Shown: positions 30,271 to 51,300 of the stretch, one piece after another
How positions within the stretch are numbered: position 1 is the stretch's first letter
How the letters are laid out: every line of letters starts with the position of its first letter
Assembly: GCA_963854735.1 (NCBI GenBank)
Contig: OY978105.1
Coordinates: 1,054,001-1,118,000, forward strand
Source: Marvania coccoides
Taxonomy: Eukaryota > Chlorophyta > Trebouxiophyceae > Chlorellales > Chlorellaceae
Length of the DNA stretch: 64,000 nt
Reading direction: 5' to 3'
Made by a program: the position numbers and the translations under genes
Notes under the pieces: generated by a model
Databases searched by the model: none
What the model saw: only the letters and a program-made list of their open reading frames with translations
Told to the model about the DNA's origin: nothing

Positions 30271-30295
30271 TTGACTGCTTTGTCTCTACTGTGAC

Positions 30296-30384
30296 AAGGT
30301 AAGATCGATGGTTCGAACCCATCATAGAGTAGTATAAACCCGGTTTTGCTCTATTGGCCAAGTGGTAAGGCGTACCTCTTGTAA
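30296..30384 (+). tRNA. Circularly permuted tRNA-Thr(UGU) gene
   Basis: The 3' half of a tRNA lies upstream of its own 5' half. The 3' half is 30296-30331: loop base 38, anticodon 3' strand AGGTA, variable loop AGATC, T stem GATGG/CCATC around loop TTCGAAC, acceptor 3' strand ATAGAGT, discriminator A. A 16-base linker follows (30332-30347). The 5' half is 30348-30383: acceptor GCTCTAT, TG, D arm GCC with loop AAGTGGTAA and GGC, G26, anticodon strand TACCT, loop CTTGTA. Across the halves the acceptor stem forms 7 pairs (one G-U), the anticodon stem 5 perfect pairs, and the T stem 5. The rebuilt loop CTTGTAA gives anticodon UGU with U33. The join falls at 37/38, the standard eukaryotic tRNA intron site. 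No CCA is encoded. B box precedes A box. T4 runs lie in the linker (30344-30347) and just downstream (30387-30390). Leader bases ACAA (30294-30297) could pair with UUGU of the loop. Confidence 0.93.
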
Positions 30385-30951
30385 GCTTTTGCTGCTCTGA
30401 ACTCTCGCCGCTGTCCATAATTCTTCAAAACATGCAAATTCCCAAAGTTTTGAGACTTTCAGAGAGATGCCATAACTTTTGGCAAATATAGGCCATTACA
30501 TGCCATCCTAGGCCCTTCCTCTGCGTTACATGTGCTTCTTTACGTTAATTCTTTACGTTAATGACACTCTGAATGGCGAAGCCATGCACAAAAAGGGACC
30601 CAAACCGGTCAGATTCCGGTCTTGGGGAATGGGATATATGCCCGCCAAAAATCTGCCGACCAAAAAAACGCGTTTCCGGAACCTATCCCCTCCCTGGCCG
30701 GCGTGCTCCAAGACCTGCCAATGCGTTGCCCGTGGACATTTGTGAATTCCGGCTCCTATGCAGAGCTCCTGGAAGCTTCCGGCACTTTTGGCTTGGCCTG
30801 CTTTCTTCTCCAACGTCGCAGTGCAGTAAACAACCAATGTTTACGCACTGGCAGCTCCCATGAGCTAACTAGTAGGGAGCGCGAACCACCGCATGTGCAA
30901 GCATAATAAATTAAATTAAATCACCATATTTATCTCGCTAATTTCTTCATT
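30385..30951. other. Intergenic, about 0.6 kb
   Basis: Starts with a T4 tract just after the tRNA 5' half, a possible RNA polymerase III terminator. A two-copy tandem of TTCTTTACGTTAA lies at 30537-30562. Short overlapping frames at 30553-30906 have no motif. Probably repeat-derived sequence next to the LINE relic. Confidence 0.35.
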
Positions 30952-32028: not shown

Positions 32029-33213
32029 TCAGTACACCGTCAGCGTTTCTGTCGCTGGGTACCCTGCATCCTCCTTGTGCCGCTCAAAAACCCCCTCCAG
32101 CGCCGCTATGAACTTTCCCAGGTACTCCTCCACCAGCTCCGGCGGCGGAGTGCCCCCCACCTTGGGCACCTCAATGGGCGCGCCCACCACAATGCGCAGC
32201 GGGACTCTCCGCGCCAAAGGAGACCCCCACCGCCCCCACACAAACATGGGGGCCACCCCGATGCGCCGCGCGAGCTTGCCCCACAGCGCTTTGGGCACCA
32301 CCCCCTTTGGAAAGTCCAGAAACGGGCGGCAGTAGGAGTAAATATGGCTCTGGCCGAAGCAGAAAACAGGCACCAAGGGGGCGCCGTGCTGCAGCGCCAG
32401 GCGCACGAAGCCGTGGCGTTTGCGGAGGTAGGCTACCTCCGTGCCTGGCTGCATGTAGAGGCACTCTCGCACGCCGCCAGGGCACAGGGCGACGGTGGAG
32501 CCTGCGGCGAGCAAGGAAGAAACTACGGAGCGGCTGACGGGGCGGCAGCCCAGCCAGTACCACATGTGGCGCATGACGGGGGCGAGAAAGCCTGCGGAGG
32601 AGACCAAGATGCGGGCATGGGCCAGCCCTGGGGGCGGGGCCACCGCTGCAAACTCGCAAAACGCACAAATGCCCTGCAGACATGAAACCGCCAGTAAGAA
32701 ACTCAGCTGTAAATAGCTAAAGCTGCTCAAGGCATCTGTTGTTTCTTCTACTGTCTATTTGTGTTGGGAAACGACCCTCCCAAAAGCAGGAAAACAAATG
32801 AAATATTTGTGTACCTGCGGCAGCACGCTGTGAGGCTCGTAGCCGATGATGTAGGGCCGCCCGCCGTGCAGAGCCGCAGGGTCCTCGATGACGAGCGTCA
32901 CCGGGAAGTAGTGGAACGCTGCGTCCAGGGTGAACGCCATGAAGCGGCGGAGAAGGGCGGGGCAAGGAATGTCCAGGGGGGCCATCGCTAGGGCGATGAG
33001 GATGGCGGCGGAGAGGGAGGCGGGGATGGGGAAGGCGGGGAGCAGGACAACGGTGAGCACTGACCAAACGAAGACAGCGATCAGTCCGAAAATCCAGATG
33101 GAGAGCGTCAGAACGGTGGCGATGGTCCAGCGCCAAGAGTTGGGGGGTGGCGGCCGAGGCGCCAGCACCAGCATCTTCTCCTTGGTGTGGTCCACGCCAT
33201 TGGCAGCGTCCAT
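32029..33213 (-). CDS. DGAT2: Type 2 diacylglycerol acyltransferase
   Basis: Makes triacylglycerol from diacylglycerol and acyl-CoA at the ER and lipid droplets. Two minus-strand exons, 33213-32815 and 32673-32029; 347 residues. Two hydrophobic segments (about 28-90) precede the active-site motif EPHS at 126-129 (GYEPHSVLP), which is the form found in plants and green algae; animals and fungi have HPHG. Further family blocks are PVMRHMWYWLG, ALCPGGVRECL, KRHGFVRLALQHGAPLVPVF.FG, and FVWGRWGSP. Length is normal for DGAT2. GT-AG intron, phase 0. Next to an unrelated oxidoreductase gene on the same strand, 305 bases upstream. Confidence 0.94.
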
Positions 33214-48354: not shown

Positions 48355-51300
48355 TTACACCTGCAAGCTCGTTGCGTGCGCCTCTTCCAGCTTGGGCCTC
48401 TTTTGCGACAGCTCAAACGCCTCCACCTTGTCCCCCTCCTCCCAGTCCTTGAATCCCTCCAAAAAGACGCCACACTCAGTGCCTGCCGGCACCTCCCTCA
48501 CGTCGTCCTTCAGCCGCCGCAGCGACGTCAGCTCGCCCTCGTACACCACATTCTTCTTGCGGCGCACCACCACAGTGGAGCCCTTGCGCAGCGCGCCCTC
48601 CATCACAGCGCATCCAGCAGCCTTGCGGGAGCCCGAGCCAAACACCGCCTTGACGTCTGCCCAGCCCAGCGACAGCCGCTCCTCTTGCGACCGCAGGCGG
48701 CCCTCCATCACCGCCCGCACGTCATCCACCAGGTCGTAGATCACACTGTAGGACGAGAGGTTCACGCCGGCGCGCTTCGCCTGCGACGACACCGCCTCGG
48801 TGGGGGTCACGCCGAAAGAAAGCACCATCCCCGAGGAGGCGACCGCCAGGTCGATGTCGGACACGGTGACCTCCCCGGGCGCGGCCAGCAGGTAACGCAG
48901 CACGACAGTGTCTTGCGGCAGCGCACTCAACGCAGATTTCACCGCTTCCACAGAGCCGGAGGCGTCCGCCTTCAGGATGATGTTCATGCGCTGCAGCGCC
49001 TGCTCCTCGGGGGCGTCGTCGTCCATGGAAGCCAGCGACGACAGCGTCACCATGGAGCCGCCGCCAGCGATCTCAGACAGCCGCTCCAGTCTGCGGGCGT
49101 CCTCGACGGCCTCCGCCGCCGCGCGCGCGCGGCCCTCACTCTCGAAGACCTCGAACTCGTCGCCGGCGGTGGGCACGGCGTTGAGGCCCAGCACCTGGAC
49201 GGCGATGGAAGGGCCAGCTTCTGTGACCTCGCCGGAGGTGGCACGCATGGAGCGGACCTGCAGGATGGGGTAGGGATGGTTGGGGAATGGATAAAAACGG
49301 AAGGTGAGTGGGTGATTCAGCACAAAAGAATCGAAGAAAAATATTGAAATCAGCCCTCCACAGCGTTGAATTGGAAAATGAAAACCAAAAAAGACAGCAA
49401 ACTGTTTGAAAACGAAGGGGCCTCTGTTGAGCGAACCGTGTGCGGTGTTAGCATCACTAAAAATGAAGTACTTTTATCAGGATTTGGATTCCCTAGCACA
49501 GTCTCTTCCTCGGCACCAATTTTCTGATTATAATATAGAACAAACTTCACTCCTCTAGTAGACTACGCTCTCTTACCTTTCCGTAGGTCTCTCCCGCCAC
49601 CAGCGAATCCCCCACCCTTAGCGTGCCGTTCTGCAGCAGCAGCGTGGCCACCGGCCCCGCCCTCTTGTCCAGCGATGCCTCCAGCACAGTGCCCACCGCA
49701 TTCCGCGTGGGGTTAGCCTGCAGCTCCTCTAGCTCTGCCACCAACAGCACCGTCTCCAGCAGCTCGTCCACGCCCTGCCCCTTCTTAGCGGAGATGGTCA
49801 CCATCGGGGTCTTACCCCCCCACTCCTCGGGGATCAGCTCCACCTCGGTGAGCTCCTGCTTGACGCGCTCCGCGTTGGCGCCCTCCTTGTCGATCTTGTT
49901 GATGGCCACCACGATGGGCACTCCCGCAGCCTTGGCGTGGGAGACCGCTTCAAGCGTTTGGGGGCGCACGCCGTCGTCAGCTGCCACGATGATGATGGCG
50001 ATGTCGGTCACGCGGGCGCCGCGAGCGCGCATGGCACTGAACGCCTGCAAAAACGAGGATGACGCGGGTGCAAAAATGGTGAAAATTGAGCCAAAAATGG
50101 CGTAATTTTGTGGAAGTAGTGAAAATGTTGTTAAACGGAGAAGGAAATGGGGGAGAGTGCACCAGCCTCAGTGTTAAAAAGCTCTGTTAGTTATGTCCAC
50201 AAGGGTATTCGGCGTTGGATTATTGGTTAAGCATCCTTGGCAATGCAGTGCACACTCCATTAATTAAATAAATAAAACGAGGAAAAAACCGCCCAAAAAT
50301 ACGAAATAAAATTTCTAAAATTGTTTCTGCGCCCTTACCTCGTGGCCGGGGGTGTCCAGGAAGGTCACCTGCCGCATCTCCCCGCCGTATTCCACGTCGC
50401 AGGTGTAGGCGCCGATGCTCTGCGTGATGCCGCCGGCCTCGCCCGCCGCCACCTTGCTCTTCCGCACAAAGTCCAGCAGCGAGGTCTTGCCGTGGTCCAC
50501 GTGCCCCATCACCGTCACCACGGGGGGGCGCGCCACCAGGTGCTCAAGGTCGCCCTCCTCGATGAAGGCGTGGGTCTTGCGGGCAGAGTCCTCAGGCTTG
50601 GCCTCCTCCTTGTCCAGCACGTCCACGTCGTACTCCGTGCCCACCAGCTTCACGGTCTCCGCGTCCAGCGTGGAGTTCACCTGCACCGCCAGCCCCTTCA
50701 TGAAGAGGCGCTTGACAATGTCCACTGGCGGCACAGCCAGCATGGCAGCCAGGTCCATCACGCTCATGCCCTCGGGGCCAACCTCGAAGATGTCCTCCCG
50801 CTCCCGCGCAGACGCCTTCGTCTTCTCGTCACGTTCAGCCTTGCGGCTCTGGCGGGCCTTGCGGCGGTTGCCAACATCGATTTTCACCTTGCCGCCGCCG
50901 GGGCGCTTGGCGCCGCCGGCGCCCCCCGGGCCGCCCGGCCTGCTGCCGCCGCCGGGGCCGCGCCGTTGTCCGTACGCCGGAGCGCGACCACCAGCACCAC
51001 CGCCGCCACCAGGGCGAGAGAAATTGCTGGTGTTGCCCTGCCCAGGCCCACCGCTGCCAGCCTGAGGCCCGCCAGCGCCGGGGGCGCCAGTGTTGGGGCG
51101 GTTTTGCCAGGGGCGCGGGGGCCCACCAGGGCCACCAGCGTTTCCGCCGCCGCCGCCGTAGCTGCCGCGATTGTTGTTATAGTTAGGGTTGTAGGGGCCG
51201 CGGCTCTGCTGCCCCTGCCCCTGTCCCGGACCCTGCTGCTGCTGGCCTTCGGCCCCAGGGGCTCCTCCTTCCTGGGGACGGTTGCCTCTGTAGCCTCCTC

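Follow-up and report, generated by a model that had tools for sequence, protein, structure and literature searches.

A circularly permuted nuclear tRNA-Thr(UGU) gene and twelve further permuted tRNA genes in the green alga Marvania coccoides

Permuted tRNA genes have been known since 2007, when they were reported from Cyanidioschyzon merolae (Soma 2007, via PMC3978253). As described in PMC3978253, a circular intermediate occurs in C. merolae and in green algae, most likely because the splicing machinery cuts the transcript at the junction and ligates it; excision of the linker, for which RNase P and tRNase Z may be responsible, then opens the circle, and CCA is added later. Table 1 of that paper holds 34 permuted tRNA genes, none of them for Thr(UGU). 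In 2025 permuted tRNA genes were described in Auxenochlorella UTEX 250-A, where they came to light after tRNAscan-SE had given an incomplete set (PMC12636532). Among the titles and abstracts listed, with few subscription journals covered, there was no further trebouxiophyte report. A first-pass annotation of the DNA considered here named Cyanidiales, some prasinophytes and nucleomorphs as hosts, a list to which Auxenochlorella (PMC12636532) and Thermofilum pendens (PMC3978253) have to be added.

The present subject is a gene in a window of 64,000 nucleotides of a nuclear contig of Marvania coccoides (C9:1054001-1118000). It is very probably a working tRNA-Thr(UGU) gene of the nuclear genome, circularly permuted at 37/38 (type II), whose product is processed via circular RNA.

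Anatomy of the permuted tRNA-Thr(UGU) gene

Direct reading of the sequence places tRNA-Thr(UGU) at window positions 30296-30383 of the plus strand with its halves reversed, the 3' half coming first. That half (30296-30331, A38 to A73) begins with A38 (30296) and continues through the 3' strand of the anticodon stem (AGGTA, 30297-30301), the variable loop (AGATC, 30302-30306), the T arm (30307-30323; 5 bp, loop TTCGAAC), which is the B box, and the 3' strand of the acceptor stem (ATAGAGT, 30324-30330) to A73 (30331). A linker of 16 nt from A73 to G1 (30332-30347), with TTTT at its end (30344-30347), leads to the 5' half (30348-30383), which runs from the 5' strand of the acceptor stem (GCTCTAT, 30348-30354) through U8 (30355), the D arm (30357-30371; 3 bp, A13-A22 unpaired), which is the A box, G26 (30372) and the 5' strand of the anticodon stem (TACCT, 30373-30377) to the loop CUUGUA (30378-30383, C32 to A37), where the anticodon UGU follows U33. 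All of these features, and the two that flank them, lie on the plus strand. On the 5' side the leader of the permuted pre-tRNA (30281-30295) adjoins A38 and would act as the 3' end of an intron; on the 3' side the trailer (30384-30390) consists of AGC and then TTTT (30387-30390), a putative RNA polymerase III terminator. Inspection by eye, rather than by motif statistics, disclosed no clear TATA-like element in the 60 nt upstream.

Joined at 37/38, the halves amount to 72 nt before CCA and form a cloverleaf with the eukaryotic conserved bases U8, G18G19, U33 and TTC, in which the acceptor stem has 7/7 pairs (one of them G1-U72), the D stem 3, the anticodon stem 5/5 and the T stem 5/5. CCA is not encoded, A73 being followed by GTA. 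The halves are adjacent and on the same strand, and their spacing of 16 nt is inside the published range for permuted genes. The reversed halves, the 16-base linker, the stems, the UGU anticodon and the 37/38 join of the first-pass annotation are thus all borne out; its span of 30296..30384 was right at the start and one base too long at the end, since the A at 30384 and the A at 30296 are alternatives, of which the tRNA uses one. ARAGORN calls the 72-nt join tRNA-Thr(tgt), and the 73-nt join is ambiguous to it.

Given the window as it stands, ARAGORN reported 0 tRNA genes and Rfam at gathering thresholds no tRNA. The single Rfam match was a SNORD36-type C/D box snoRNA elsewhere in the window (50163-50242, minus strand; 36.6 bits, gathering threshold 30, E 0.033). 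Among the ORFs tested, the nearest one downstream with a family match resembles diacylglycerol acyltransferase (DAGAT, E 2.6e-39; 32029-32727, minus strand).

A covariance model for permuted tRNAs, R1, was made from 9 ordinary nuclear tRNAs of this genome, with tRNA-Thr(UGU) left out. Each was cut at 37/38 and its parts were put in permuted order on either side of a random linker; in some a single base was inserted or deleted to equalise lengths, because the MAFFT alignment of raw permuted tRNAs was distorted. On the window, with filters off, R1 gave 57.9 bits (E 7.6e-20) at 30296-30383, with 12.0 bits for the runner-up place, and the gene keeps 20 of the 21 model pairs when one D-loop base is added to fit the columns. 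A pairing-based finder dates from after the first sister genes had come to light, so that its thresholds were not blind; it made one match in the window, the same gene, at its maximum of 22.5; 200 dinucleotide shuffles (12.8 Mb, both strands) gave three matches, the best at 18.0 and none at 21 or above. The permuted order of this gene is beyond chance.

Permuted and ordinary tRNA genes of the nuclear genome

The assembly has 22,462,713 bases in 15 contigs, 13 of them non-organellar, and telomere repeats (TTTAGGG)n stand at all four nuclear contig ends sampled. A plastid-like contig of 99,873 bp (C15) carries TilS (closest match 66% identity) and CP47 (closest full-length match 96%), as well as what we take to be FtsH- and CysA-like ORFs. 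Matches of CP47 with a species name are mostly from land plants and various algae, at about 80-86% identity. Another contig (C14, 49,038 bp) is presumably mitochondrion-like, to judge from its ORFs; a tandem 27-bp repeat there (L011 2137-2547) yields an ORF of repeated MYLTSYKVR units.

The genome-wide search for permuted tRNA genes that the first-pass annotation had proposed was run in part, and yielded twelve further ones. It went from B-box words to candidate places to loci examined, for 37/38 junctions only. The word GGTTCGAATCC had 18 places, 4 of them nuclear and all 4 examined, and GGTTCGATCCC with one mismatch had 194, from which 28 were examined, picked by T-loop rules among 100 listed. 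There were 5 positions for GGTTCGAACC (3 already known, 2 examined), 11 nuclear places for GGTTCGATTC (3 already known, 8 examined), 9 for GGTTCGAGTC (all 9 examined) and 9 for GGTTCAAATC (8 examined, one inside the window). For three of the six words reversed-word controls were commoner than the words themselves (237 versus 194 for GGTTCGATCCC with one mismatch, 66 versus 10 for GGTTCGAACC and 120 versus 17 for GGTTCGAGTC), so the evidence lies in the structures and not in counts of B-box words. By these tests the 59 loci examined comprised 12 permuted genes, 4 ordinary intron-bearing genes, one ambiguous case and 42 without a tRNA.

With tRNA-Thr(UGU) the permuted genes number 13 and are spread over 8 contigs. 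Of the resolved nuclear tRNA genes that B-box words picked up, 20 in all (with tRNA-Thr(UGU), Asp, Glu and Cys included), 13 are permuted; over both search routes the figure is 13/26. This share is to be taken as an estimate, since the words span part of the possible T loops. Scores on R1 descend from Phe(GAA) (65.5 bits, linker 8 nt) and Thr(UGU) itself (57.9 bits, 16 nt) through Thr(CGU) (55.0 bits, 6 nt), Arg(CCG) (54.9 bits, 6 nt), Ala(CGC) (52.6 bits, 21 nt), Glu(CUC) (45.1 bits, 8 nt), Arg(UCG) (41.6 bits, 43 nt), Asn(GUU) (38.2 bits, 51 nt; 4/5 anticodon pairs), Leu(CAG) (37.6 bits, 7 nt), Ser(GCU) (35.7 bits, 6 nt) and Arg(CCU) (27.7 bits, 54 nt) to Arg(UCU) (23.2 bits, 56 nt) and Gly(GCC) (12.7 bits, 85 nt). 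For the last two the support comes from the pairing finder, which gives each its maximum of 22.5; R1 misplaced the 5' half of Arg(UCU) and saw the T arm only of Gly(GCC). ARAGORN calls all 13 joins as the stated tRNA, but this 13/13 is weak support, given that 85 of 1200 arbitrary joins of L128 pass as well. The locus in question, the ambiguous one of the search (L085/L128; C9:367754, minus strand), is class II and permuted-looking with 28.5 bits on R1, allows no paired anticodon arm that has a U33 and is left uncounted; it may be a pseudogene or have an unusual junction or an extra intron. A G1-U72 wobble is found in 6/13 permuted genes (Thr UGU, Arg CCG, UCG, UCU and CCU, Leu CAG) and in 2/13 ordinary ones (Gly UCC, Lys CUU).

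The ordinary nuclear tRNA genes also came to 13, 9 through the tRNA family search and 4, all intron-bearing, through B-box patterns only (L049, L050, L112, L121). Those without an intron are Val UAC, Gln CUG, Met CAU, Gly UCC, Glu UUC and Asp GUC, and those with introns at 37/38 are Cys GCA, Lys CUU, Thr AGU, Ser UGA, Ser CGA, Arg ACG and Ile UAU. As read here the 13 permuted and the 13 ordinary genes share no anticodon, and four of the five Arg anticodons found are permuted. Met(CAU) (L014, C7:672075) has C33 in place of U33, and a T loop TTCGAGC; C33 instead of U33 occurs in some initiator tRNAs.

For three of the B-box finds the ARAGORN labels, Thr(tgt) for L049, Gly(ccc) for L050 and Ser(tga) for L121, differ from our readings, which are Ser(UGA), Ser(CGA) and Ile(UAU). 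An ordinary Thr(UGU) at L049 was rejected on account of its Ser-like sequence. Spliced at 37/38, L049 has identities of 66/81 to Ser(CGA) of L050 and 64/81 to the permuted Ser(GCU), against 43/82 to Thr(UGU) and 41/82 to Thr(AGU); its long variable arm is the same as in the two Ser tRNAs, and its pair 27-43 is unformed.

A standard tRNA-Thr(UGU) gene elsewhere, which the first-pass annotation had named as telling against its reading, was sought in non-exhaustive searches and found neither among the 13 ordinary genes recovered nor with the joined sequence. The latter, a DNA search of the whole 22.5-Mb assembly with the 72-nt join, matched at 100%, half by half, at the gene's own locus only. In the same search mode 15 plant tRNAs as queries returned 0 candidates, though tRNAs for those amino acids are present, so the search is too insensitive to diverged tRNAs to show their absence, and its single locus excludes near-identical copies of tRNA-Thr(UGU) only. 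At least 4 intron-bearing genes were missed by the family search, which makes the absence of an ordinary tRNA-Thr(UGU) provisional. The ordinary finders used here miss permuted genes, and this genome therefore seems to lack much of its tRNA set until the permuted order is read.

Termination, processing and alternative readings

A single RNA polymerase III transcript would hold the leader, the 3' half, the linker, the 5' half and a trailer ending in the T-run, and would fold so that the acceptor and anticodon stems form. The splicing endonuclease Sen2/Sen34 would then cut after A37 and before A38, with trailer and leader treated as the two ends of an intron, and tRNA ligase would join 37 to 38 to give a circle. 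Removal of the 16-nt linker from the acceptor loop would fall to RNase P and tRNase Z, and CCA would be added to the tRNA so opened. The genome encodes a Sen34-like ORF (L045) and a Sen2-like ORF (L046), the two catalytic subunits of the endonuclease. We infer transcription, ligation, aminoacylation and the circle; the same pathway has been reported for C. merolae and green algae.

In 13/13 permuted genes a run of four or more T begins +3 to +9 after the 5' half (in Thr(UGU), TTTT at +4), as would be predicted for transcription in the permuted order; such a run lies within 9 nt of 6.0% of positions in the surrounding intergenic stretch and of 5.3% over the window. Linkers in the 13 genes are 6-85 nt long, the 85 nt of Gly(GCC) being beyond the published 1-74 bp. 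T4 is absent from 12/13 linkers, and the exception is that of Thr(UGU), whose terminal TTTT has the same length as its trailing T-run. Some transcripts of this gene might stop there, before the 5' half, which counts against a simple one-piece transcription.

Eukaryotic pre-tRNAs have base pairing between intron and anticodon loop (the A-I pairing named in PMC3978253 and PMC4090602). The pairing of leaders was tested as 33-36 against -4 to -7, with 11 registers for total pairs. The exact register of A-I pairing is 32 with -3. For the permuted set the 33:-4 register is the best of the 11, with 33/52 pairs (shuffled 26.4; P 0.016, uncorrected for the registers tried), and at least three consecutive pairs occur in 7/13 genes (shuffled 2.5; P 0.002); at no other of the 11 for total pairs, nor at any of 4 others for consecutive pairs, did the set reach P 0.05. 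The 7 ordinary introns have at least three consecutive pairs in 4/7 cases (shuffled 1.15; P 0.010), with 33:-4 the best register, and their total of 14/28 pairs is not significant (P 0.22) and equal to that at the -3 register. This supports the view that the leaders of permuted genes, as a group, act as the 3' ends of introns do, which would be expected of a single endonuclease serving both introns and permuted junctions. The junction of Thr(UGU), the place where type II permuted genes are expected to have a BHB/hBH motif, is weaker than that of the set: -3, -5 and -6 of its leader (30293, 30291, 30290) can pair with C32, U34 and G35, and U33 and U36 have no partner at -4 and -7, giving 3 of the 5 tested pairs and not three in a row, so that it is outside the 7 genes just counted.

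Could the tRNA be a split one, with transcription ending at the linker TTTT, the 5' half transcribed apart and the halves joined in trans without a circle? The linker does end in a run as long as the trailing one, and yet this is improbable when T4 is missing from the linkers of all twelve sister genes, when the halves of Thr(UGU) are adjacent and co-oriented, and when sister linkers go down to 6 nt and leave scant space for a second promoter. A swap of the halves of a normal gene in assembly can be all but dismissed; though the gene order is known here from one assembly, a single architecture is common to 13 loci on 8 contigs and the nuclear contig ends sampled bear telomere repeats, four out of four.

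That the locus is a non-functional remnant of tandem duplication, its role filled by another tRNA, would fit with the partial second copies at the sister loci Ala(CGC) and Leu(CAG), described below, and with the presence of Thr(AGU), which, read as inosine, could also decode ACA by wobble, so that a need for tRNA-Thr(UGU) does not prove function. A relic is nonetheless quite unlikely, for the gene retains its model pairs (20/21), the conserved tRNA bases and the T-run, the searches made found no ordinary UGU gene (L049 being Ser(UGA)), and permuted and ordinary genes have no anticodon in common. A functional permuted gene processed through a circle is the reading we prefer.

Partial duplications and comparison with known permuted systems

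At Ala(CGC) on C6 (L124 163-284) a 61-nt block of 5' half and T-run is tandemly repeated with 98% identity, and two possible 5' halves thus follow one 3' half. Leu(CAG) on C2 (L125 206-402) has a second 5' half (44 nt, 98%) 107 nt downstream, in a second unit where the acceptor strand is kept, the T stem is broken and the 3' half has decayed in part, its start being unrecognisable. The second 5' halves of both were left out of the gene counts. PMC3978253 describes an additional 5' half behind the permuted Cys(GCA) gene of Ostreococcus lucimarinus, and its proposal is one of tandem duplication in which the outer segments are lost. The copies here are so alike that they point to recent duplication of genes already permuted, rather than to an original intermediate. 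It is possible, and we put it forward tentatively, that the permuted order is the prevailing arrangement of this alga's nuclear tRNA genes, extends to most of whole families such as that of Arg, and is still turning over by tandem duplication of 5' halves or whole units, with a single 3' half perhaps able to circularise with either of two 5' halves.

A genome with roughly half of its recovered nuclear tRNA genes in permuted form would be the richest case known to us. It would be suited to ask whether permutation originates by tandem duplication and loss or by retroposition of circles, how polymerase III works when the A and B boxes stand in reverse order, and to what extent the translation of a cell can rest on circular tRNA intermediates.

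In the archaeon Thermofilum pendens the 3' part precedes the 5' part, as here, whereas the junction is at 59/60, CCA is encoded and introns are present (PMC3978253). In C. merolae 11/43 tRNA genes are permuted, at junctions 20/21, 37/38, 50/51 and 59/60, where 37/38 alone was sought here; its Thr(CGU) and Thr(AGU) are permuted with a 37/38 junction like the Thr gene of this report, a T-stretch likewise follows the 5' half, and the circular intermediate has been reported experimentally (PMC3978253). Intervening sequences of C. merolae are described there as having no terminator, unlike the Thr(UGU) linker with its TTTT (PMC3978253), but a terminator-free linker is an accompaniment reported for one species and not a defining requirement.

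The permuted genes of Ostreococcus, Micromonas and the Bigelowiella nucleomorph (Maruyama 2010, via PMC3978253) are nuclear or nucleomorph ones and in all but one case have the 37/38 junction, as here. As given in PMC3978253, their linkers are 5-64 nt long and one gene only has an intron; Ser is the commonest identity, with Leu, Cys, iMet, Arg and Asn also represented and no Thr; and the extra downstream 5' half of O. lucimarinus Cys(GCA) resembles the arrangement of Ala(CGC) here. Each of those genomes has 2-6 permuted genes, against at least 13 in this one (PMC3978253). Auxenochlorella UTEX 250-A is a green alga with a similar haploid genome of about 22 Mb (PMC12636532). It has 12 chromosomes with TTAGGG telomeres, a plastome of 84.6 kb and a mitogenome of 54.0 kb (PMC12636532), in comparison with 13 non-organellar contigs, TTTAGGG repeats and organelle-like contigs of 99.9 kb and 49.0 kb here. 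Permuted tRNA genes as such are already known; what is unusual in the present genome is the proportion of its tRNA genes that are permuted and the two among them that are partly duplicated.
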